Source of the DNA: an uncultured Lachnospiraceae bacterium
Lineage (GTDB): Bacteria; Bacillota; Clostridia; Lachnospirales; Lachnospiraceae
Assembly (NCBI GenBank): GCA_944384105.1
Contig: CALWSC010000085.1
Span: 1 to 44,508, forward strand
Length of the DNA: 44,508 nt
Direction: 5' to 3'
This document shows, one piece after another, positions 14,375-32,584 of this stretch. Under the pieces are notes generated by a model. The model worked only from the letters and a program-made list of their open reading frames with translations, did no database searches and had not been told where the DNA came from. Within the stretch, counting starts at the first letter, position 1. Every line of letters starts with the position of its first letter. Position numbers and translations under genes: made by a program.

Positions 14375-15514
14375 TTACCATTCCGAAGTTGCACTGCTCC
14401 AGCACAACGGATCCTCCTGCGCGGTCAGCCCATTGCCGGAGCGCATATACCAGTCTGCGTCCTCCGTACCGAATTCTGCCAGGGTATCCGTCAGTAAAGC
14501 GCCGTCCTCACCGAGATAATACTTTCCGGCGGGAATGCCGCAGGCAGTGTCCTTCTCCACAGTGACCCATTCAGAGCGCGCCATGCGTCCGTCCCCATCG
14601 AGGTAATAATGCCTGCCGTCCACCTCAATCCATCCGGTGTCCCGCTCTCTCATACAATTAAAATGATACCGTTCTCCTTCGATATCCATCCAGCCCGCCT
14701 CAGCCTGATAACCCGTTTCGGGATCAAAATACGTCCAGCCTTCCGTATCATAATTCAGCATTCTCCAGCCTTCTGCCCTTTTTCCGAACTCATCAAGATA
14801 GATGATCTTATTCTTTTCGACATCTTTTAAGATACAAGTACACGTTTCAATCCTGCCGTCCTCCAGACGCCTCCAGCCAGTCTCCTCCTCTATGTATGGT
14901 TCTTTTAAGATTCCGTCCACATACATATCCTTCATCAGAAGCGCACACGGACCGAACCAGTTGATCGCAACGGTAAGCGTATTCTCATCCTGATCGAGAT
15001 CGCACAGATAGACCGGATTCCCGTGCGCCAGATCAAAGAGCGCGTAGAATCGCTTGGTATAGGGATCCGTATTCCTGTACTCCTCCGGAATCTCTAAAGT
15101 AATCCAGATCGGATCGTATGTCTCCTTCACTGCGCCGGGCTCATTACCCATCCCCGCCTTCAGGCGGATATCCAGGTAACGCAGCGCCACATATCCCTGA
15201 TAATTCATCAGTGGATCATTGATCAGCTTTGCACGGTATACCGGATCAATCGTATCGGTCACATTGTTCACCGTAACCGCAACTTTTGCCTCCGCGCCGT
15301 TCTCGATCATCTCCTCCTGTCCGGAGGTAAAGAGAATCTCCTTGAGTTCTTCCTTCGTCATCGCCACCTGATAACTGGGAGCGCCGTTCTGCATCTCTTC
15401 ACTCAGCGTCAGATTGGACAGCGCTTCTTCTGTCTCTTTCGCCCCCACCTGGACAGCACGTCCAGCCAGCGCCAATCCCACAGCCGCAGCCAGCAAAACC
15501 CACGTTTTTTTCAT
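14375..15514 (-). CDS. Secreted surface protein with cell-wall-binding-type repeats (paralogue A)
   Basis: 379 aa, exported. The N-terminus MKKTWVLLAAAVGLALAG is a signal peptide with a possible signal peptidase I site after VGA. A beta-rich domain (about 30-190) carries FTSGQEEMI, VNNVTDT, YVALRYLDI and ITLEIPEEYRNT, and the C-terminal half has aromatic/glycine repeats such as GWTYFDPETG, GWMDIEGERYHF and GWIEVDGRHYYLDGDG, of the choline-/cell-wall-binding repeat type. AGGAGG lies 9 nt before the chosen ATG (the upstream ATG at 15532 contains the ribosome binding site). It is 40-50% identical by eye to the next gene, with which it is probably cotranscribed. Paralogue B has LSGC where this one has LAGR, so the lipid anchor is lost. 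Function unknown. Confidence 0.82.
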   Translation of the reverse strand: MKKTWVLLAAAVGLALAGRAVQVGAKETEEALSNLTLSEEMQNGAPSYQVAMTKEELKEILFTSGQEEMIENGAEAKVAVTVNNVTDTIDPVYRAKLINDPLMNYQGYVALRYLDIRLKAGMGNEPGAVKETYDPIWITLEIPEEYRNTDPYTKRFYALFDLAHGNPVYLCDLDQDENTLTVAINWFGPCALLMKDMYVDGILKEPYIEEETGWRRLEDGRIETCTCILKDVEKNKIIYLDEFGKRAEGWRMLNYDTEGWTYFDPETGYQAEAGWMDIEGERYHFNCMRERDTGWIEVDGRHYYLDGDGRMARSEWVTVEKDTACGIPAGKYYLGEDGALLTDTLAEFGTEDADWYMRSGNGLTAQEDPLCWSSATSEW

Positions 15515-15583
15515 AGCCACGCACCTCCTCATCTATTTTCTCAATATCGGAAAACTTGTATCCTTGGAGATTTTTTCTTTGCA

Positions 15584-16609
15584 TCACTCCAGCACGGCTC
15601 CGTTTTCATCAAAGGTATACTCGCCCCAGGGGATTCCAAGCATCGCACTGCCCTCTGCCGTAATTGTCTCAAAACGCGCAATCCCCCCGTCATTCTTGGC
15701 ATAATATCGCTTTCCGTCCGCCTCAAACCAGCCTGTGACCGTTTCATCCAGCGCATTAAAATAATACCATTCACCGTCGATCTCATGCCAGCCCTCTTCT
15801 GTCCGACAGCCGGTCTCCGGGTCGAGATATATCCATCGCCCAGCCTCTGAATCTATCATCTGCCAGCCCTTCGCAATCTTTCCGAACTCATTGAGATACA
15901 GCGATTTCCCGCCGGACTCACTCAGCGGCACATTGCTGCATGCCGTAATTCTTCCGTCCCCTTTGCGGTACCATCCGGTATCTTCCTCCTGGAAGGGCTC
16001 CATCAAAATTCCGTCCACATACATATCCTTCATCATAAGCGCAAATGTCCCAAACTCGGTCAGCGCCACGGTCAGCGTATCCTCATCGCTGTCCAGATCG
16101 CACAGATAGGCTCCACCCGGTCTGGAGAGCACATAAAACCGTTTAATCAATGGATTTGTATTTCTGTACTCCTGAGGGATCTCAAATGTAATCCAGACAG
16201 GGTCATACGTCTCCTCTACTTCTTTGACATAGTCTGACATTCCCGCACGCAGCGTGATATCGAGGTATCTGAGCACCACATACCCGCTATAAGACATCGC
16301 CAAGTTGCCTGTCACATGCCCCCGGGTCTCCATGTCGACCGTGTCCGTCACATTATTTACCATAACCTCAATCTCAGCTTCTCTCCCCTCCTTGATCATC
16401 TCCTCCTGACCGGAGGTAAAGAGAATCTCCTTGAGTTCCTCCTTCGTTGACTTCAAATGATAGGCCGGCGCATTGTTCTCCATCTTCTCACTCAGCTTTA
16501 GACTCTCCAGCGTATCCTGCGCCTTATTCTCTCCGCCCACACTGCTGCATCCGCTCAACGCAAGTGCCGCTGCAAGAAACACCCTCAACAATTTTTTTAT
16601 CTTTTTCAA
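15584..16609 (-). CDS. Surface lipoprotein with cell-wall-binding-type repeats (paralogue B)
   Basis: 341 aa. Signal peptide with lipobox LALSGC (Cys21), so it is predicted to be lipid-anchored. It has the same architecture as its downstream paralogue: TKEELKEILFTSGQEEMI, a beta domain ending ALTEFGTFALMMKDMYVDG, then repeats GRWIYLDPETG, GWHEIDGEWYYFN and GWFEADGKRYYAK. The beta domain resembles those in Lachnospiraceae surface proteins that end in RFSTYAL-like strands. The TTG start was chosen because AGAGGGGG sits 8 nt upstream; the in-frame GTG at 16618 lies inside that ribosome binding site. Function unknown. Confidence 0.82.
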   Translation of the reverse strand: MKKIKKLLRVFLAAALALSGCSSVGGENKAQDTLESLKLSEKMENNAPAYHLKSTKEELKEILFTSGQEEMIKEGREAEIEVMVNNVTDTVDMETRGHVTGNLAMSYSGYVVLRYLDITLRAGMSDYVKEVEETYDPVWITFEIPQEYRNTNPLIKRFYVLSRPGGAYLCDLDSDEDTLTVALTEFGTFALMMKDMYVDGILMEPFQEEDTGWYRKGDGRITACSNVPLSESGGKSLYLNEFGKIAKGWQMIDSEAGRWIYLDPETGCRTEEGWHEIDGEWYYFNALDETVTGWFEADGKRYYAKNDGGIARFETITAEGSAMLGIPWGEYTFDENGAVLE

Positions 16610-16637
16610 TTGATGCACCCCCTCTTATTTTTTCTTC

Positions 16638-23704: not shown

Positions 23705-23733
23705 TTGACATTTCCCTCTCCTTCTGCAATAAT
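23705..23733 (+). promoter_or_regulatory. Promoter of the molybdenum hydroxylase operon
   Basis: TTGACA (23705-23710), 17-nt spacer, AATAAT (23728-23733). It gives a leader of about 50 nt before the GTG start at 23791. No operator palindrome was obvious. Confidence 0.78.
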
Positions 23734-23790: not shown

Positions 23791-24576
23791 GTGCTTACTA
23801 TCAAAAAATACGTAAGAGCCGCAAGCCTCGAAGAGGCTTATGAGCTGAATCAGAAGCGCACGAACCGTGTAATCGGCGGGATGCTGTGGCTGAAGATGAG
23901 TTCCGGAACGGTACAGACAGCGATTGATCTGTCCGGGCTGGGGCTTGATACGATTGAGGAGACAGATGAGGAGTTCTCCATCGGAGCCATGGTGCCGCTG
24001 CGCGATCTGGAACTTCATGACGGATTAAATATGTACACTCACGGGGCCATGCGCGAAAGTCTGCGCCACATCGTCGGTGTGCAGTTCCGAAATCTCGCAA
24101 CCGTCGGGGGAAGCCTGTACGGAAGATTCGGCTTCTCCGACGTTCTGACCTGCTTTCTGGGACTTGACGCTGTCGTGGAGCTTCATCACGCCGGAATGGT
24201 GCCTGTCGCGGAATTTGCCGTGCAAAAGCCCGACCGCGACATACTCGTGCGCATCCATGTGAAGAAGACGCCGCTTCGATGTGCATATCTCTCACAGAGA
24301 AACACCAGAACAGATTTCCCGGTGCTCGCCTGTATGGTGAGTGAGTGGGGCGGCGCGCTGCGCGCTTCCATCGGCGCACGTCCCCAGAAAGCTTCTCTCA
24401 TCGAACTTCCGCAGAAGCTCTCGCTTGGCACCGCTTCACCGGAGGAAATCGCATCTTATGTACAGGAGCACACAGTTACCGGCTCAAATATGCGCGCCAG
24501 CGCCGCATACCGCAGCCGTCTTGCGTATGTGCTCACAAAACGCGCCTGTCAGCAGATTGGAGGAATGGACAAATGA
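23791..24576 (+). CDS. Molybdenum hydroxylase FAD-binding subunit (xanthine dehydrogenase family)
   Basis: 261 aa medium subunit carrying FAD, which passes electrons from the iron-sulfur subunit to NAD or another acceptor. CO-dehydrogenase flavoprotein-like motifs are [11 protein letters not shown] and [17 protein letters not shown]. The C-terminal domain is short compared with the usual 280-300 aa. GTG start with GGAGG 7 nt upstream. It overlaps the next gene by ATGA. The three-subunit order FAD, 2Fe-2S, Mo and the following selenium genes mark this as a candidate selenium-dependent hydroxylase. Confidence 0.9.
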
Positions 24577-25055
24577 TGATAAAGCTGAATCTGAACGGAA
24601 AACCCGTCTCTGCAGACGTTGCTGAGGACTCCCTGCTGATCGACTTTTTAAGGGAGCATGGCTGCTACAGCGTCAAGCGCGGCTGTGAGACATCAAACTG
24701 CGGGCTTTGCACCGTATTTCTCGACGGCAAACCGGTGCTCTCCTGTTCCCTGCTGACTGTGCGCGCGGACGGCAAAACCGTGCACACACTTGAGGGACTT
24801 CAGAAGGAAGCGGAAGAGTTTGGAACATTTATCGCCCGCCAGGGTGCAGAGCAGTGCGGCTTCTGCAACCCGGGCATGATCATGAATGCAATCGCAATGT
24901 TCCGTGAGAATCCCGACCCGACGGATGAGGAAATTCTCGAATATCTGGCCGGCAATCTGTGCCGCTGCTCGGGTTATGAGGGACAGCTCAGAGGCATCCG
25001 TGCATTTCTGGACTACAAGAAATCGAAAGGAGAGACTGCCGTATGCAATATGTAA
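24573..25055 (+). CDS. Molybdenum hydroxylase 2Fe-2S subunit
   Basis: 160 aa small subunit with two [2Fe-2S] clusters. Plant-type ferredoxin ligands are Cys38, Cys43, Cys46 and Cys58 ([12 protein letters not shown]); the alpha-helical domain has Cys95, Cys98 (QCGFCNPGM) and Cys129, Cys131 (NLCRCSGY). The set is complete. The ATG overlaps the FAD-subunit stop, so translation is coupled; a longer frame upstream is antisense noise. Confidence 0.96.
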
Positions 25056-27325
25056 ATCAGCCTGTGATGAAAAAAGACGCCATGGCACTCGTGACCGGGC
25101 AGCCTGTCTTTATGGATGACATTGCTCCCGCGGACTGCCTGATCGTAAAGCTACTGCGCAGCCCCCATGCCAACGCGATCATTGAGGATATCAAAACCGA
25201 CGCCGCTATGCGTGTGCCCGGAATCGAAGCAATCTATACCTGGAAGGACGTCCCGCAGCAGCGTTTCACGCTTGCCGGCCAGACCTATCCGGAACCCAGC
25301 CCGTATGACCGCCTAATCCTTGACCGCCATGTCCGCTTTGTCGGAGATCCGGTCGCAATCATTGCCGGAGCAACCGAAAAGGCGGTAGACCGCGCAATGA
25401 AGATTATCAAGGTTAAATATCAGGTACTTGAACCCGTTCTGGACTTTCACACTGCAAAGGATAACGCAATCCTCGTACACCCGGAGGATAACTGGAAAGC
25501 GCTCTGCCCTGTCGGTGCAGACAATAAGCGGAATCTGTGCGCAGCCGACTTCTCCGAGGAGGGAGATCTCGACCAGGTACTTTCTGACTGTGACATTGTT
25601 GTGGAGGGTACGTACCACACAAAAGCCAACCAGCAGGCGATGATGGAGACCTTCCGCACCTGCTGCTATCTCGACACATACGGAAGGCTGAATATTTTAA
25701 GTTCTACCCAGATCATCTTCCATGTGCGCAGAATTGTCTCTAATGCACTCGGTATCCCAAAGTCGAAGATCCGCGTATCAAAACCGAGGATCGGCGGAGG
25801 CTTCGGTGCAAAGCAGACCGCTGTCTGTGAGATCTACCCCGCATTCGTGACCTGGATGACGAAAAAGCCATCCAAGATTATCTATACCCGTGAGGAGAGC
25901 CAGATCGCATCCAGCCCGCGCCACGAGATGGAAGTAAAGGTGCGCATCGGAGCGATGAACAGCGGAAAGATCCGCGCCATTGACGTCTATACGCTCTCGA
26001 ACACCGGAGCGTACGGAGAGCATGGTCCTACTACTGTCGGGCTTTCCGGACACAAGTCCATCTCCCTGTACCGCGGCCTCGAAGCATACCGCTTCGCATA
26101 TGACGTCGTTTATACCAATGAGATGTCTGCCGGGGCGTACCGCGGCTACGGCGCCACACAGGGACTCTTCGCCGTAGAGACAACTGTGAACAAGCTTGCG
26201 GCGCGGCTTCACATGGATCCCGTAAAGCTGCGCGAGCAGAACATGGTGCAGGAGGGAGACGAAATGCCGTCTTACTACCATGAGACTGCAACGAGCTGTG
26301 CGCTTGACCGCTGTCTGGCACGCGCCAAGGAGATGATCGGCTGGGATGAAAAGTTCCCCTGCCGAGACATGGGAAACGGCAAAGTGAGAAGCGTCGGCGT
26401 TGCAATGTCCATGCAGGGCTCCGGTATCTCCGGCGTGGATGTCGGCTCTGCGACGATCAAACTCAACGACGATGGTATCTATACGCTGATGATTGGAGCT
26501 GCTGATATGGGAACAGGCTGCGACACGACGCTTGCACAGGTAGCTGCGGAGTGCCTTGACTGCAGTCTTGACGATGTTACCGTGTTCAGTGCGGATACGG
26601 ATCTGTCTCCGTACGATTCCGGCTCCTATGCCTCCAGCACTGCTTATATCACAGGCGGCGCTGTCGTAAAGGCGTGCGGGAAACTGCGTGAAAAAATCAC
26701 GCAGAAAGGTGCTGAACTGCTCGGATGCGATGCTTCGGACGCAGAATTCACCGGAAAGGAAGTCTTCTGCAATTCAACCGGTGCTTCTGTTTCCCTGACC
26801 GACATTGCTACGCGCTCAATGGCTGGAAATCACGAGGCACTGCAGGTGACAGAAGCGAATTCTTCTCCGACTTCCCCGCCGCCGTTCATGGTCGGTATGG
26901 TTGAGGTGGAGATCGACAAGGAGACAGGCGCGCTCGATATTCTCGACTACGTCGGCGTCGTGGACTGCGGAACACCGCTGAATCCGAATCTTGCCCGCGT
27001 TCAGACTGAGGGCGGCATTGCACAGGGCATCGGAATGGCGCTCTACGAGGATATTCAGTATACGCAGAAGGGACAGCTTATGAACAACTCCCTGATGCAG
27101 TACAAGATTCCGAGCCGGCTCGATGTGGGACGCATCCGCGTGGAGCTGGAAAGCAGCTACGAGAAATCCGGTCCTTTCGGAGCGAAGTCCATCGGAGAAG
27201 TGGTTATTAACACGCCCTCCCCGGCTCTTGTACACGCTGTCGCGAACGCTACCGGACTGTGGATTGACGAACTTCCGATCACTGCGGAGAAGATCGCGAT
27301 GGGATTACTTAAACATGAAGATTGA
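25043..27325 (+). CDS. Molybdenum hydroxylase large subunit (xanthine dehydrogenase family, probably selenium-dependent)
   Basis: 760 aa catalytic subunit holding the molybdopterin cofactor. Family motifs in order: [20 protein letters not shown] near 250, [26 protein letters not shown], and the active-site glutamate (about 719) in GAKSIGE. These enzymes insert oxygen from water into N-heterocycles such as xanthine, hypoxanthine or nicotinate. The adjacent yqeB, yqeC, selD and yedF homologues point to a labile selenium ligand on molybdenum rather than sulfur. Substrate is not fixed by the sequence: no purine transporter or other purine gene is nearby. No in-frame selenocysteine codon is needed. 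Overlaps the 2Fe-2S gene by 13 bp. Confidence 0.93.
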
Positions 27326-27896
27326 TATGATACTGCTGGCGGCTGGCAACAGCCGCCGGTTTGGTTCTAATAAGCTGTTTTACGAGGTGGACGGCACCGC
27401 TCTCTACCTGCGCGCATTTGACCGGCTGCTCGCGGCGGCCCGCCCGGATGAGAACAGAATATTTGTTGTCAGCAGATATGATGAAATTCTGTCAGCGGCG
27501 AAAACGTATTCTTCTCTGCTGATTCCGGTATCAAGTCCGGACAGTGAGCTCGGGATTTCCCGCTCCATCCGCAATGGCATTGCGGCGTCCGGCGGCACTG
27601 CAGACGCCATCGCCTTCTTCGTGGCAGATCAGCCCTGGCTGCGTCCGCAGACGATCCGGGAATTTCTCGACCAATACGCCAAAAGCGGGATGCCGCTCGG
27701 CTCCCTGCGCTTTGGGGAACGGATGGGCAATCCCGCCGTATTTTCCCGTGCCTATTACCCGGAGCTGCTCTCACTTTCCGGGGATAAGGGCGGAAGAAAA
27801 ATTTTAAACGCACACCCGAAGGAGTGCTTCTGCTTCTCTCCCTGTTCTGTACAGGAGCTTATTGATCTGGACATGCCTCCGGGCGAAGACGCGTAA
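27315..27896 (+). CDS. mocA: MocA/MobA-like molybdopterin nucleotidyltransferase
   Basis: 193 aa nucleotidyltransferase with the signature LLAAGNSRRFGSNKL and the metal-binding stretch FFVADQPWL. By homology and context it attaches CMP to molybdopterin, giving the cytosine-dinucleotide cofactor used by this hydroxylase family. The ATG overlaps the large-subunit stop by 11 bp, so the four genes form one coupled operon. Its 3' end overlaps the convergent yqeC by 38 bp. CTP rather than GTP specificity is inferred from context. Confidence 0.85.
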   Translation: MKIDMILLAAGNSRRFGSNKLFYEVDGTALYLRAFDRLLAAARPDENRIFVVSRYDEILSAAKTYSSLLIPVSSPDSELGISRSIRNGIAASGGTADAIAFFVADQPWLRPQTIREFLDQYAKSGMPLGSLRFGERMGNPAVFSRAYYPELLSLSGDKGGRKILNAHPKECFCFSPCSVQELIDLDMPPGEDA

Positions 27897-28680
27897 TAAG
27901 TCCGTACGGCACCTCGCCGGACACCAGAGAGAGAATCTCTCCTGCCTGAGAAATTCTCTCCGCCGTATCCGCCTGATTCAGCACAGGAATTACAGCTCCA
28001 CCGCTGTGAAGAGCCGGCACTCGGTCAATATATCCGCTTTGCAGTGCCTCTGCAAGGTGCTCCGGGCGGATCAGTTCCTTTTCAGCCAGTCCGCCGGGAT
28101 ACATCTCATATCTGTGAAACGCGTCTCCCACAGCCTTGCCCAGCGCCGACAGTCCCATGACTGCCAGCACCACATCTGTATCCGCGCTTAATACCGGCTC
28201 GTCCGCGCGCGGATACTTTGCCGGCAGGCGGCGGGAACCATCTGCCTCCTCGAGAATCAAATCCGCGTGAGATGATAAAAGACTGCGAAGCGATGCAGGG
28301 GCTTTCTGACATTTGACGGCACTGTCTTTTATCTCGGGCGGAAGCTGACCATCGCGTTCGGCGCTTCCCTTCCATCCGGGACACGGCGTCCCGATACATA
28401 CGAAGCCATCACGCTCCAAAAGCTTTACAGCGCGCTTCTCATCCCCGTCCAGCACAGACAGACGCTCCGGCAGCAGCATGTGCGTGGTTGTACCAAGCAC
28501 GGTTTTCATTCCCACCCGGCATGCTTCGCGTGCCAGGCTCCACAAAAGACTTGTCTTGCCGCCCGCACCCGCGGCCGCGATGACGAAGGGACCGGACACA
28601 CCGGATTTTTTTTGCTTCAGAAGCAGTTTAAAAAGCGCTGGTACCTCCCTGATTTCTCCATTTTCATGTTTCCATATCAT
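27859..28680 (-). CDS. yqeC: Selenium-dependent hydroxylase accessory protein YqeC
   Basis: 273 aa. P-loop FVIAAAGAGGKTSLLW (Lys42), LGTTTHML switch-like stretch and LILEEADGSRRLPAKYP are the hallmarks of the YqeC family, found only with selenium-dependent molybdenum hydroxylases. Probable nucleotide-dependent maturation or selenium-insertion factor; the exact reaction is unknown. Last gene of the minus-strand operon, 7 nt behind the cysteine desulfurase. Confidence 0.92.
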   Translation of the reverse strand: MIWKHENGEIREVPALFKLLLKQKKSGVSGPFVIAAAGAGGKTSLLWSLAREACRVGMKTVLGTTTHMLLPERLSVLDGDEKRAVKLLERDGFVCIGTPCPGWKGSAERDGQLPPEIKDSAVKCQKAPASLRSLLSSHADLILEEADGSRRLPAKYPRADEPVLSADTDVVLAVMGLSALGKAVGDAFHRYEMYPGGLAEKELIRPEHLAEALQSGYIDRVPALHSGGAVIPVLNQADTAERISQAGEILSLVSGEVPYGLITRLRPEACPDQ

Positions 28681-28687
28681 CGGTTTC

Positions 28688-29845
28688 TCAATATCCGCAG
28701 AGGCGCGACAGCTCCCTCAGAGCATCCGCAGCCTCCAGCACTTCCTCCTCTGTATTATAATACGAAAAACTGAACCGCACTGCACCCTGCTCTCTTGTTC
28801 CGAGCGCCTCATGCATCAGAGGAGCACAGTGCCCGCCGCTGCGGGTGCAGATTCCACGCTCCTGCTCCAGCCATGCACTCACATACCCGGAATCCTCATC
28901 CCCGAGATTCAGAGCTGCTGCTGCAGTCCTAAGAGGCAGATCATAATCTCCATACATCCGGATACCCGGAATCTTCTGTACCTCCTGCACAAACAGGCGG
29001 CAGAGCTTCTCCTTCTTCTCTGCAATCTGCTCCAGCCCAATCCTGTCAATTTCCTTCAGCGCGGCGAGCAGCCCGGCAACGCCGTGTCCGTTCTGTGTGC
29101 CCGCCTCAAGCGCGGATGGCATCTCCCTGGGATGACTCCTGCTGTAGGTCTGTATGCCGCTGCCCCCGGTAAGCAGAGGACGGACTGCAATGCCGCGGCG
29201 CACGCAGATACCTCCGGTTCCCTGAGGTCCCATAAGACCCTTGTGTCCAGTAAAACAGAGCACGTCAATGCAGTCGCGCTCCATGTCAATCTTAAGCATT
29301 CCTGCGCTCTGGCAGACATCTGCCACGAACAGCACGCCGTTTTCCCGGCATCTCTGCCCAATCCTTCTGATATCGTTTCCGTTTCCTGTTACGTTTGAAG
29401 CATGCGTACAGAACACAGCCCGCACACCGGGAACAATCTTCTGCTCCAGCGCCTCCATATCCAGGACGCCGCGGGGAGCAGACGGCTCCCTGCAGCCGAT
29501 GACAGTAAGCTGTACGCCGCCATTCTCCATCTCATAGAGCGGTCGCAGTACGCTGTTGTGCTCCATCACTGTTGTGATCACCCGATCGCCGGGGCGCAGC
29601 AGTCCTTTGACCGCAGTGTTGAGCGCCTGCGTCCCGTTCATTGCAAACGCAACGCAGTCTGCTCCCTGCGCGCCGAACAGCGCAGCAATACGTTCTCTCG
29701 TCTCCAACAGCACCCGCCCCGTATACAGAGATGCCGGATGCGTCCCGCGGGAATCGTTTCCCATACGGCAGATGGCGTCGGCAACTGCCGCCGCGACCTG
29801 CGGCGGCTTTAACAATCCTGTTGCAGCGGCATCCAGATAGATCAT
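28688..29845 (-). CDS. Cysteine desulfurase-like aminotransferase class V of the selenium cluster
   Basis: 385 aa PLP enzyme. The PLP lysine is Lys202 in CFTGHKGLMGPQGTGG, and the catalytic cysteine is Cys340 in RSGGHCAPLMHE. It belongs to the desulfurase subfamily that is encoded with orphan selD and yqeB/yqeC. Expected role: mobilising sulfur or selenium from cysteine or selenocysteine for SelD and the hydroxylase cofactor; selenocysteine lyase activity is possible. Its ATG overlaps the yqeB stop by 4 bp. Confidence 0.9.
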   Translation of the reverse strand: MIYLDAAATGLLKPPQVAAAVADAICRMGNDSRGTHPASLYTGRVLLETRERIAALFGAQGADCVAFAMNGTQALNTAVKGLLRPGDRVITTVMEHNSVLRPLYEMENGGVQLTVIGCREPSAPRGVLDMEALEQKIVPGVRAVFCTHASNVTGNGNDIRRIGQRCRENGVLFVADVCQSAGMLKIDMERDCIDVLCFTGHKGLMGPQGTGGICVRRGIAVRPLLTGGSGIQTYSRSHPREMPSALEAGTQNGHGVAGLLAALKEIDRIGLEQIAEKKEKLCRLFVQEVQKIPGIRMYGDYDLPLRTAAAALNLGDEDSGYVSAWLEQERGICTRSGGHCAPLMHEALGTREQGAVRFSFSYYNTEEEVLEAADALRELSRLCGY

Positions 29846-30666
29846 GCTTCCCCCTCCAGTTCTAATTCCAGAAGTCCGGCTAGCACGGAACCTGCGATAC
29901 AGCGCGCCTTGTCGGAGATTGAAAAGCAGTTCTCCCTCTCCTTAGGTCTGGGATCTATATCTGCAAGCTTAAAGCCCTCTGTGACAGGATAGCCGTCCGG
30001 CAGGATTCCCCTTAAGATGCCGGCGATCGATGCGCAGACCGGCACCTTTCCCTTTCCGGTATCAATCTGTCCGATCAGCTGCCCGCGCTCCACAATGTCT
30101 GAGATAGCCGCCGCGCCCTCAAAGACGCCCTGTGCCGGAGCGTGGATTACACGCTCTTCACCGTATCCTGCGATGATGCCCGGAATCCCCGTATTCGGCG
30201 CAGCGCTGCCCTTCCGGATAATTCTGCCAAGATTATGGCCTCTCTTTGTCTCAATCACAAGCTGTACATCCTTCCCGGCCGTAAAACCGGGACCCAGGGC
30301 AATCGTTAAGGGAGCCATCTCTCTGGAAGTCCCAAGATTTTTCTTCGCAAGAATCGCATCCACAACCGCCCAGGGCTTTACCTCCTTTAAGCACTCTGCT
30401 TTTGGGTCCATCAGAAGCGCAACGTCTCCGGAGCGCAGCATTTCCAGCGCCCCGGCAACACTTTCCGCCTTCCGGCAGCGCACATTCTCCACCGTACACT
30501 CCCCGTTATAAACCGCCTCGGAAAACGCAACTTTCCGGCGGATTGCCGCCGGGCGGCTAATCTCCAGCGCCAGTACCGGATATCCGCAGCGGTGCAGCCG
30601 GTGAATCACTCCCGTCGCCAGATCACCGGCTCCTCTCACGACAACGAGCTGCTCTCTTCTCTTCAT
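29842..30666 (-). CDS. yqeB: Selenium-dependent molybdenum hydroxylase maturation protein YqeB
   Basis: 274 aa. Dinucleotide-fold start VVVRGAGDLATGVIHRLHRCGYPVLALE and the family blocks LTIALGPGFTAGKDV and ETKRGHNLGRII identify YqeB. It is distantly related to XdhC-type maturation proteins and is a marker of selenium-labile hydroxylase systems. The start was set at MKRREQL, 9 nt after GAGGAGG; an ATG at 30684 would overlap the ribosome binding site. Confidence 0.92.
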   Translation of the reverse strand: MKRREQLVVVRGAGDLATGVIHRLHRCGYPVLALEISRPAAIRRKVAFSEAVYNGECTVENVRCRKAESVAGALEMLRSGDVALLMDPKAECLKEVKPWAVVDAILAKKNLGTSREMAPLTIALGPGFTAGKDVQLVIETKRGHNLGRIIRKGSAAPNTGIPGIIAGYGEERVIHAPAQGVFEGAAAISDIVERGQLIGQIDTGKGKVPVCASIAGILRGILPDGYPVTEGFKLADIDPRPKERENCFSISDKARCIAGSVLAGLLELELEGEA

Positions 30667-30680
30667 ATGCTTCTTCCTCC

Positions 30681-31301
30681 TCACGGTTTTACGAGGAGAC
30701 CGGCTTCCGTCATACGCTGGGCGATCTCGTACATATTTGTGACGCTTCCGACAGCCAGATGCTCAGTCAGTCCGTAATAATTCAGGCAGGTGCCGCATGT
30801 TAAGATCTCTACCCCCTGTGCTTCCAGACTCTTTAAGTCCTCAACTGTCTGAGCCCCCTCACAGGAGAGCTTGGCTCCCCCGTTATACAGCAGCACAGTC
30901 TCCGGAAGTACCTCCTGCTGTGCAAGCGCGTACACAAAGCCCTTCATCAGGACAGCGCCCAGCTCCGGGCTGCCCTCTCCCATTGTCTCAGAAGAGAGCA
31001 CCACAACAGTTCCTCTTCTCCTCGCATCCACAGAACACTCCTCCGCCTGAGTCTCTTCCTCCGCCTGCGGCTGCACAGAGCCGTCCTCCCAGACGAGCAG
31101 TACGCTGTATTCACGCTCCGCCTCTTTCTTCGCCTCGAACCGATAACCCTTTTTCTTCGCCAGCTTCCCGAGATTCTGCACTGCAATCTCATTGTCGACC
31201 AGAACCTTTGCCTCAGCCCCCGGTCCTGCCGCCTCCATCGCGTGCTTTGTCTCAATAACCGGAATCGGGCACTGCTTTCCTCTCATATCCAGATGCATCA
31301 T
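30681..31301 (-). CDS. yedF: YedF: TusA-like/DsrE-like selenium metabolism protein
   Basis: 206 aa with two domains: an N-terminal TusA-like fold with the persulfide-type Cys11 in RGKQCPIPV, and a C-terminal DsrE-like domain with conserved cysteines in [12 protein letters not shown]. YedF proteins of this length co-occur with selD and probably carry activated sulfur or selenium. The ATG overlaps the selD stop (ATGATG). Confidence 0.92.
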
Positions 31302-32332
31302 ACGATTTTTCCCTCCACAATTACGCTGCACTCTTTGCGCGCCTCTACATATCCTACACGGGCACAGAGAACTCCCTTTTTGCCCATCTCTTTTTCTGCC
31401 ATATCCGCATCTCCGGGCGGCAGACTCACCAACAGTCCGCCCGATGTCTGCGGGTCAAACAGGATCTCTTCCGTTGCAAAGCTGTCTTCGCAAAAAAGAA
31501 CCTTTGACTCAACGTGATTTCTGTTTCTCTGAGCCGCAGCAGTGAGACAGAACTCCTCCACACACTTCGGGCTCTCCGGAAGATATGGAATATTCTCTGC
31601 AAAAATCCTCGCTGTATGCTTCTGTCCCATCATCTCGCACAGATGCCCGAGAAATCCAAATCCTGTCACGTCTGTGCAGCCGTGCACGTGATATTTTCTC
31701 ACGATTTCCGATGCTGTGCGGTTAAGCGCCGTCATACTTTGGACAGCTTTATCAAGGGCACTCTCAGAGACAAGACCAACGCGCGATGCCGTGCAGACAA
31801 GCCCTGTCCCAAGCGGCTTTGTCAAAAGCAGCACATCCCCCTCCTCACAGCCGTTGTTCTTAAAAATACGCGCAGGATGAATTGTTCCCATTACAGACAG
31901 ACCGTACTTGACATCCGCATCATGGATCGAATGACCGCCTGCAAGGGAACCTCCTGCCTCCTGCACTTTCTCACTTCCGCCGAGCAGAATCTGTCCCAAT
32001 ATATTCAGATCCATCTCCTCCGGAAAGCAGACAATATTAAGCGCTGTCTTCACATCTGCTCCCATCGCATAAATATCACTTAACGCGTTTGCCGCCGCAA
32101 TCTGTCCGAAAATATACGGATCCTCCACCATGGGCGGAAAGAAATCGAGCGTCTGTACGACAGCCAGCTCGTCGCTTACGCGGTATACTGCAGCATCGTC
32201 GCTGCTGTCATAGCCCACAAGTAAATTTTCATCCTTTACTCTGGGAATTTTCTCAAGCACTCTTGCGAGCGCTCCGGGTCCCAGCTTTGCCGTGCATCCT
32301 CCGCCGCGGCAGAACTGTATCTTATTCTCCAT
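31298..32332 (-). CDS. selD: Selenide, water dikinase (selenophosphate synthetase)
   Basis: 344 aa; makes selenophosphate from selenide and ATP. The catalytic pair is Cys13 and Lys16 ([10 protein letters not shown]), so this is a cysteine, not a selenocysteine, version. ATP-binding blocks [33 protein letters not shown] and [17 protein letters not shown] are intact. No selA, selB or selC is in the window, so its selenophosphate may serve the hydroxylase cofactor rather than selenoproteins; a search of the rest of the genome is needed to call it an orphan SelD. Confidence 0.96.
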
Positions 32333-32347
32333 GTTTTCTCAGCCTCC

Positions 32348-32584
32348 TTACAGAAACATGCGCCAGGTCTGCTCCCAGACAAGCCCTGACTTTCTCAGGC
32401 AGCGTTCTGTCCTGTCCAGCTCCTGCACCGGAGCGCACCACGCCATCCCGCAGCCTGCCGTGATCTCCCGCGGCACCGGGATCAGTCTTCCCGGACAGTC
32501 TGCCTCTTTCAGCGAGCGCTCTGCCTGCATCGCCTGCAGCGTTGTCTGAAATGTGATTACTGCCTTTTCCTCTTTAATTCTCAA
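32348..32584 (-). CDS. DUF3343 putative Se/S carrier protein
   Basis: 78 aa. The fold VITFQTTLQAMQAERSLKEA, then GRLIPVPREITAGCGMAWCAP with two conserved cysteines, matches DUF3343, a small family found beside selD and yedF. A role as selenium or sulfur carrier has been proposed from context only. The TTG start follows GAGGAGGAG; no ATG fits. First gene of the six-gene selenium operon. Confidence 0.82.
   Translation of the reverse strand: MRIKEEKAVITFQTTLQAMQAERSLKEADCPGRLIPVPREITAGCGMAWCAPVQELDRTERCLRKSGLVWEQTWRMFL

Follow-up and report, generated by a model that had tools for sequence, protein, structure and literature searches.

Does a selenophosphate synthetase (SelD) encoded beside a molybdenum hydroxylase serve that enzyme, and on which substrate does the enzyme act? 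These questions were raised by a contig of 44,508 nucleotides (CALWSC010000085.1, our contig C85; hereafter the window) from an uncultured Lachnospiraceae bacterium (assembly GCA_944384105.1; 2.93 Mb, 78% complete), in which a four-gene operon on the plus strand, encoding a hydroxylase of the xanthine oxidase family, faces a six-gene operon of selenium genes on the minus strand. Comparison of the locus with its relatives suggested that it probably encodes a three-subunit, purine-interconverting enzyme with a labile selenium ligand on molybdenum. Loci of this type are already known, having been described in gut Clostridia in 2008, and the window is a further, well-supported member; it offers a clean case, with one listed hydroxylase, one apparently orphan SelD, and one YqeB. 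The surprising part lay outside the window: in related genomes, the enzyme is constant and the selenium module and XdhC vary together.

Hydroxylase and selenium operons of the window

All ten genes were intact and open. In the plus-strand operon, the genes for the flavin adenine dinucleotide (FAD), 2Fe-2S, and molybdenum subunits were followed by a MocA-like gene, and each gene overlapped the next one. The FAD subunit (261 amino acids, GTG start; 23791..24576) matched PF00941 at 74 bits, the 2Fe-2S subunit (160 amino acids; 24573..25055) matched PF01799 (Fer2_2) and PF00111 (Fer2), and the molybdenum-binding large subunit of the xanthine oxidase family (760 amino acids; 25043..27325) matched PF02738 and PF20256 (MoCoBD_1/2) and PF01315, all over the cut-offs. 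The MocA-like cytidylyltransferase (193 amino acids; 27315..27896) scored 109 bits with PF12804 (NTP_transf_3), over the cut-off, and 92.7 bits with TIGR03310 (MocA), under the cut-off of 186.45.

The minus-strand operon had the order DUF3343-selD-yedF-yqeB-csdL-yqeC with intergenic gaps of -4 to 15 bp, and the 3' ends of mocA and yqeC shared 38 bp. The DUF3343/Se_S_carrier protein (78 amino acids, TTG start; 32348..32584) scored 83.6 bits with PF11823 (cut-off 25). SelD (31298..32332; TIGR00476, 384.4 bits, cut-off 125) was of the Cys form without an in-frame stop, and its motif GGGCTAK contained a Cys residue that we take to be the catalytic one. YedF (30681..31301; TIGR03527, 215 bits, cut-off 110) combined a TusA-like domain (PF01206, over the cut-off) with a DsrE-like domain (PF02635, slightly under). 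YqeB, the marker of selenium-dependent molybdenum hydroxylases (29842..30666), scored 348.5 bits with TIGR03309 (cut-off 220), and YqeC, a P-loop-like protein of the selenium-cofactor trait (27859..28680), scored 139.5 bits with TIGR03172 (cut-off 73); Gly38, Gly40, Gly41, Lys42, and Thr43 of YqeC were invariant in an alignment of 15 rows. The gene between them (28688..29845) encoded an EF2568-type cysteine desulfurase or putative selenocysteine lyase, over the cut-off of PF00266 and narrowly under that of TIGR01977 (361.3 bits against 377).

SelD, YqeB, YqeC, YedF, the EF2568-type lyase, and a hydroxylase have been described as one trait (PMC2276186, PMC2432076), to which YedF and DUF3343 were added later (PMC5322559), with the warning that YqeB and YqeC are diagnostic only in combination (PMC5029168). 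The initial annotation had assigned the locus to this trait as a three-subunit enzyme and a MocA-like protein facing the six selenium genes, and both points were borne out: YqeB, YqeC, SelD, and a xanthine-oxidase-family hydroxylase were all present, and SelD, YedF, YqeB, and YqeC exceeded curated cut-offs. The convergent arrangement of ten open genes also stood, but the description of the locus as complete did not, as XdhC, a member of the usual set, was found on another contig (C63). Orphan-SelD loci of gut Clostridia (Haft and Self 2008; Zhang et al. 2008) share with the window SelD, YedF (SirA-like), YqeB (HP1), YqeC (HP2), the lyase, a MobA-related protein, and a hydroxylase with a molybdenum subunit of about equal length; one-contig clusters are known in Faecalibacterium prausnitzii and Clostridium butyricum, with molybdenum subunits of 2289 and 2283 bp (PMC2432076, table 1). 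The window differs from those loci in the convergence of its enzyme and selenium operons, whose 3' ends overlap, and in the location of XdhC outside the cluster. EF2570 of Enterococcus faecalis (TIGR03311) belongs to the same enzyme family and is surrounded by the same accessory genes (PMC2276186), but the EF2570 type carries the FeS and molybdenum domains in one polypeptide, whereas these are separate genes in the window.

Co-occurrence of YqeB with the enzyme and an orphan SelD

Profile searches of the source genome detected neither SelA nor SelU, and tRNA-Sec stayed below the gathering score in this genome and in two genus-mates (83–84% complete), with a best score of 42 of 47 bits. All 14 control genomes gave a signal in the tRNA-Sec search, five of them over the cut-off; the sub-threshold matches are probably ordinary tRNAs. 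Because no SelA, SelU, or tRNA-Sec was found over the cut-off, SelD looks orphan in this genome (SelB was outside the search), as a check proposed in the initial annotation had asked. The large subunit was the sole PF02738 match among those listed for the genome.

In an order sample of 295 genomes, in which the molybdenum subunit was counted at 58% identity or more, the enzyme was present in 41 genomes (in two pieces in one of them). YqeB exceeded its cut-off in 28 of the 41 enzyme genomes, compared with 15 of the other 254 (p 1e-18, relatedness not corrected), and all 43 genomes with YqeB had a match to the enzyme family. Among 36 genomes with SelD and neither SelA nor SelU, 32 had YqeB. By hand count, 22 of the 28 genomes that combine YqeB with the enzyme had it as their sole listed match to the xanthine oxidase family, one of the 22 (G064) having one candidate left unscored; this enzyme is therefore the only visible client of YqeB in those genomes, and of all the evidence for its role as the selenium enzyme, we give this pattern the most weight. 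Three genomes (G061, G178, and G023) had YqeB over its cut-off and no SelD over the SelD cut-off; a missed SelD is likely in them, because G061 and G023 have SelA and G178 has SelU.

The frequency of the one-cluster layout was gauged in 80 named loci that had been found by sequence. Within up to 8 kb on either side of the enzyme, YqeB was found near it in five and SelD in four, and the selenium module lay away from the enzyme in many genomes; in Faecalibacterium hattorii (L151), the permease, enzyme, and selenium genes stood in a single row. At another locus (L066, genome G161), an XdhA-like three-subunit set adjoined YqeB, YqeC, and SelD genes nearer the E. coli type (YqeB 52% identical to that of E. 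coli), and the module therefore has at least two sequence types. Three selenium-state loci (L043, L042, and L080) resembled one molybdenum cofactor (Moco) island, with ModABC-, MoaA-, MoaC-, and MoeA-like genes and a fusion of MOSC and MoCF_biosynth domains, the family check having been made for the fusion of L043 only.

Joint presence and absence of YqeB and XdhC in genomes with the enzyme

XdhC (PF13478) closely accompanied YqeB. In the order sample, it was present in all 28 enzyme genomes with YqeB and in 2 of the 13 without; the latter were scattered across the enzyme tree, and 10 of them also lacked SelD over the cut-off. A second set consisted of 50 named genomes drawn from the 80 loci, 20 isolates first (status read from record titles) and then 30 metagenome-assembled genomes by rank. 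YqeB was present in 39 of these 50, and XdhC in 38 of the 39 and in 3 of the remaining 11. For the neighborhood analysis, 35 of the 41 and 48 of the 50 genomes were combined into a set of 83: six (G064, G112, G173, G175, G201, and G263) had short enzyme-locus stretches only and were excluded from the neighbor counts, and two loci (L113 and L117) duplicated order-sample genomes and were dropped from combined counts, L117 being kept in the isolate count. YqeB was absent from 24 of the 83 genomes, and XdhC was absent too from 19 of these.

An ATP-binding cassette permease of the FecCD type was encoded within 10 kb of the enzyme in 15 of the 24 genomes without YqeB and in none of the 59 with it; at least 4.5 kb upstream of the molybdenum subunit gene was available in 20 of the 24 and 53 of the 59 loci, respectively. 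Lowering the score limit to 30 bits added no YqeB-bearing locus with such a permease, and 15 of the 19 genomes with neither YqeB nor XdhC had the importer by the enzyme. The 20 isolates split perfectly, 14 having YqeB and XdhC without the importer and six the opposite. An unguided clustering of neighboring open reading frames (ORFs) ranked two families highest for association with YqeB-lacking loci: the permease (13 to 0 loci) and its binding protein (12 to 0). No report of mutual exclusion between YqeB/XdhC and a FecCD importer beside one enzyme appeared among the open-access PMC texts listed by literature searches.

YqeB appears to have changed state repeatedly. On an 86-row tree of the enzyme (LG+G4), the YqeB label needed 18 changes, 14 of which were forced by well-supported branches, and its distribution was barely more clumped than chance, values as low arising in 67 and 57 of 500 shuffles; the trees were quick ones, with support from the Shimodaira–Hasegawa-like approximate likelihood ratio test only, and nine long rows were flagged in the other enzyme tree. 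In 14 independent pairs, XdhC varied with YqeB in approximately 10 and against it in none (median p 0.002), and the importer varied against YqeB in approximately 7.5 and with it in none (median p 0.016). The large subunits of compared pairs across the YqeB divide were 65–90% identical; in one genus, the identity was 89.8% between G129, a 97% complete genome with neither gene, and G216, a 100% complete genome with both. Among the isolates, F. hattorii had YqeB and XdhC, and neither was found in Faecalibacterium gallinarum and Thomasclavelia cocleata. The initial annotation had held that a large subunit clustering with sulfur-ligand enzymes lacking yqeB and yqeC would speak against it; genomes without YqeB, whose enzymes may carry sulfur, were indeed mixed into the subfamily, with at least 14 forced changes, and this objection half applies. 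Given the mixture of genomes with and without YqeB, selenium cannot be predicted from the position of an enzyme in the tree alone. The idea that the whole subfamily is selenium-dependent was rejected, as YqeB-lacking genomes were scattered throughout.

Catalytic residues were kept in genomes with and without YqeB, and a decayed enzyme is therefore unlikely; most loci with neither YqeB nor XdhC also retained the MocA-like gene by the enzyme. A search for a residue signature of selenium use gave none: no column of the large subunit separated the YqeB groups (28 versus 12 rows), and none of the 20 most group-different columns was catalytic, although columns 260 and 360 were close to the Gln258 and Arg367 motifs.

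Assembly loss was considered as a full explanation and failed for six of the 20 isolates, which lacked YqeB and all lacked XdhC; of the YqeB-lacking order-sample genomes at least 95% complete, six of seven also lacked XdhC. An assembly gap is the likely reason for the absence of YqeB in five genomes: G236 had a YqeC piece and XdhC at a contig start, the contig of G220 was 4.2 kb long, and G326, G339, and G346 had XdhC, G326 with a cut YqeB piece as well. There were also counter-cases. G050 lacked YqeB and had XdhC together with other molybdenum hydroxylase matches, G327 had YqeB without XdhC, and G208, G108, G220, and G341 had neither gene and no importer within the stretch examined. In 2 of 11 remote module loci, those of the YqeB-bearing genomes G056 and G240, a FecCD importer adjoined the yqeB cluster and not the enzyme; because importer and module coexist in these genomes, the importer itself is not barred by the module.

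In comparison with solved structures, the permease of one importer (L036) was nearest to HI1471 (2nq2; 178 bits), with FhuB next (162 bits), and its binding protein (L036, 4536-5612) was nearest to 4hn9, annotated as an iron complex (282 bits), with HI_1472 fourth (85 bits). HI1471 and HI_1472 are presumably MolB and MolA. MolBC-A imports molybdate (PMC4031551), and the FecCD importer may well carry molybdate or tungstate, as judged from these similarities. XdhC binds Moco, aids the insertion of the equatorial sulfur, and passes Moco to xanthine dehydrogenase; in an xdhC mutant of Rhodobacter capsulatus, xanthine dehydrogenase was inactive and cofactor-free, and in E. coli without XdhC some sulfur-poor cofactor was still inserted (PMC2997495). 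An intact enzyme in genomes without XdhC and YqeB therefore calls for another maturation route or another ligand. We tentatively suggest, as a possible model, that one purine hydroxylase of gut Clostridia exists in two mutually exclusive and often-swapped states, one with SelD, YqeB, YqeC, and XdhC, and the other with the FecCD importer and neither YqeB nor XdhC, maturing without selenium and without XdhC, the chaperone regarded as necessary for this family. If this is true, the hydroxylase of the second state, with molybdenum (or tungsten) as its metal, would make its equatorial chalcogen ligand independently of XdhC or dispense with it. Because close relatives keep the enzyme without the selenium genes, the role of selenium is testable; if real, these natural pairs would give direct access to three questions: the benefit of selenium, a possible action of YqeB by way of XdhC, and the maturation of the enzyme where neither is present.

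Identity and substrate of the enzyme

The large subunit scored under every listed NCBIfam equivalog cut-off: 604.1 of 780 bits with NF043082 (XdhA), 497 of 1102 bits with TIGR03313, 427.2 of 994.55 bits with TIGR03194 (4-hydroxybenzoyl-CoA reductase alpha), and 265.7 of 830.45 bits with TIGR03311 (selenium-dependent xanthine dehydrogenase of the EF2570 type). The other subunits and MocA were likewise well under, the best NCBIfam model for the FAD subunit being TIGR03312 (55 bits, cut-off 241.5). Because all curated scores were under the cut-offs, the enzyme belongs to a xanthine oxidase subfamily for which no fitting NCBIfam equivalog was found. Its three-subunit layout is like that of E. coli XdhABC, and five active-site positions, Glu202, Gln223, Gln258, Arg367, and Glu719, aligned with identical residues of XdhA. 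E. coli XdhD-YgfM resembles the enzyme in its short FAD subunit, but the XdhD-specific Glu606 was absent, and Arg367 stands where XdhD has Gln. XdhD reduces urate to 2,8-dioxopurine (PMC12507026). The initial annotation mentioned the shortness of the FAD subunit in leaving the substrate open; its length proved ordinary, at 261 residues against a median of 264 (range 248–311) for 32 ORFs of relatives over 200 amino acids, and 259 in YgfM. The FAD gene of YqeB-bearing G216 (L035, 6633-7529), excluded from this comparison, was split into two ORFs of 114 and 179 amino acids, perhaps by a frameshift or an assembly error.

The substrate, which had been left open, is less so in the light of the neighbors of related enzymes. 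Of the 80 named loci, 31 had a PbuX-like permease gene in the vicinity of the enzyme and 12 had Xpt, and by hand count an NCS2 permease lay within 7 kb of it in 20 of the 41 order-sample genomes. Four permeases were tested, three neighbors and one from the source genome (C40); for each, the highest score was with the model of the xanthine permease, whose cut-off one of them exceeded. The source genome had three NCS2 genes, on contigs C13, C40, and C114, and like XdhC they lay outside the window. A purine is the probable substrate, given how often a PbuX-type permease gene adjoins the enzyme in relatives; we favor xanthine and urate, with hypoxanthine next. The enzyme is frequent in genomes with gut-related record titles (at least 580 confirmed stretches), and an enzyme that probably handles xanthine and urate would bear on gut purine balance.

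Could the enzyme instead be an ordinary purine hydroxylase, with a sulfur ligand or free of chalcogen, the selenium genes serving storage or detoxification, or the enzyme only optionally? We regard this as unlikely: YqeB is present in 32 of 36 orphan-SelD genomes, the enzyme is the only listed molybdenum hydroxylase in 22 of 28 genomes, and in Clostridium difficile deletion of selD or yqeB cut growth on xanthine and urate, for which both are required (PMC11448449), even though YqeB-lacking genomes keep the same enzyme, 10 of 13 of them lack SelD over the cut-off, no catalytic residue separates the groups, and one pair across the divide is 89.8% identical. A selenium-dependent enzyme with a non-purine substrate, for example a heteroaromatic acid, as for nicotinate dehydrogenase, or a phenol that undergoes reductive dehydroxylation, is also conceivable: among solved structures the best match is 4-hydroxybenzoyl-CoA reductase (289 bits), and Ucdh of Enterocloster, a gut homologue with three subunits, strips a hydroxyl group from urolithin C (PMC12771579). 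Both comparison enzymes are three-subunit members of the xanthine oxidase family, and one comes from a gut Clostridial species; the likeness of Ucdh was judged from its description, and the word selenium is absent from the main text of PMC12771579. The window itself, moreover, contains no purine permease or catabolic gene, as the initial annotation had noted for the adjacent genes. PbuX-type permeases and Xpt nonetheless recur beside the enzyme in relatives, where the neighboring genes point to purines, its 427 bits lie far below the 4-hydroxybenzoyl-CoA reductase cut-off of 994.55, and most positions compared with XdhA are kept; a non-purine substrate accordingly appears improbable.

We therefore prefer the selenium-dependent, purine-interconverting enzyme, against which, besides the solved relative, the urolithin C enzyme, and the lack of purine genes in the window, several further observations weigh. 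Position 458 is Gln as in XdhD, where XdhA has Tyr. The orphan status of SelD comes from a genome that is 78% complete, searched without SelB, and an in-frame TGA lies in the SelD of 2 of the 36 orphan genomes (G037 and G146), in which selenocysteine may be used and SelA may have been missed. The enzyme is not always paired with the selenium module, because 13 of 41 enzyme-bearing genomes in the order sample and 11 of the 50 named genomes lack YqeB. In C. difficile, deletion of yqeC had no clear phenotype, and growth on hypoxanthine needed neither selD nor yqeB (PMC11448449).

A possible route of selenium to molybdenum

From the gene families and the literature, the following route can be proposed. 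The EF2568-type lyase would free selenide, which DUF3343 and YedF would carry, and SelD would then make selenophosphate; this route is the only visible use of SelD in the source genome, and delivery of its product to molybdenum would follow. MocA may convert Mo-molybdopterin to the cytosine dinucleotide form, and YqeB, YqeC, and the XdhC-type chaperone may load selenium while the cofactor passes to the apo-enzyme, a step on which the near-strict company of YqeB and XdhC and the fusions described below bear. The enzyme would then shuttle electrons among molybdenum, the two 2Fe-2S clusters, and FAD, a path that is established for the family.

Fusions of MocA in relatives

MocA was fused to YqeC in five loci (L040, L043, L046, L051, and L115) and in the reverse order, YqeC-MocA, in L087, and it was fused to YqeB in L038 and L130. 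These fusions tie selenium loading to the cytidylyl-transfer step. They are not new, fusions of MobA-related proteins and XdhC to HP1 or HP2 having been noted in 2008 (PMC2432076). Locus L171 is apparently the record of G206 again.

A fusion of MocA to a P-loop nucleoside triphosphatase (NTPase; PF03266) was detected in L052 by Pfam, in L078 and L092 by match and sequence, in L137 by match, and apparently in L168, by sequence only. The genomes of L052, L078, and L092 (G189, G248, and G077) had neither YqeB nor XdhC, whereas L168 came from a YqeB-bearing genome, and the NTPase is therefore not tied to one state. A role for it as a replacement of YqeC in the YqeB-lacking state was considered and weakened: free NTPase genes accompanied the enzyme not only in six YqeB-lacking loci but also in two YqeB-bearing ones (L033 and L034).

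Other features of the window

Profile searches against solved structures gave nothing useful for the fold of YqeB (best E 0.048) and P-loop pieces only for YqeC (best E 0.0003); Pfam leads below the cut-off were Biotin_lipoyl for one YqeB (E 0.003) and MobB for one YqeC (E 0.04). Upstream of the hydroxylase operon, a consensus scan gave a sigma-70-like promoter on the plus strand (TTGACA, 17, AATAAT; 23705..23733; 11 of 12 matches), which is a weak candidate, with nine promoter-like sites in the region against 6.0 +/- 2.5 in shuffled sequences. On the minus strand, positions 130-1374 contained parts of a group II intron (RF02001 at 1211-1374 and RF01998 at 1091-1171), together with an ORF at 130-840 that was named by eye as reverse-transcriptase-like. 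Also on the minus strand, at 14375-16618, two adjoining ORFs of 385 and 344 amino acids shared an N-terminal stretch and appeared, by eye, to be tandem paralogous exported proteins.

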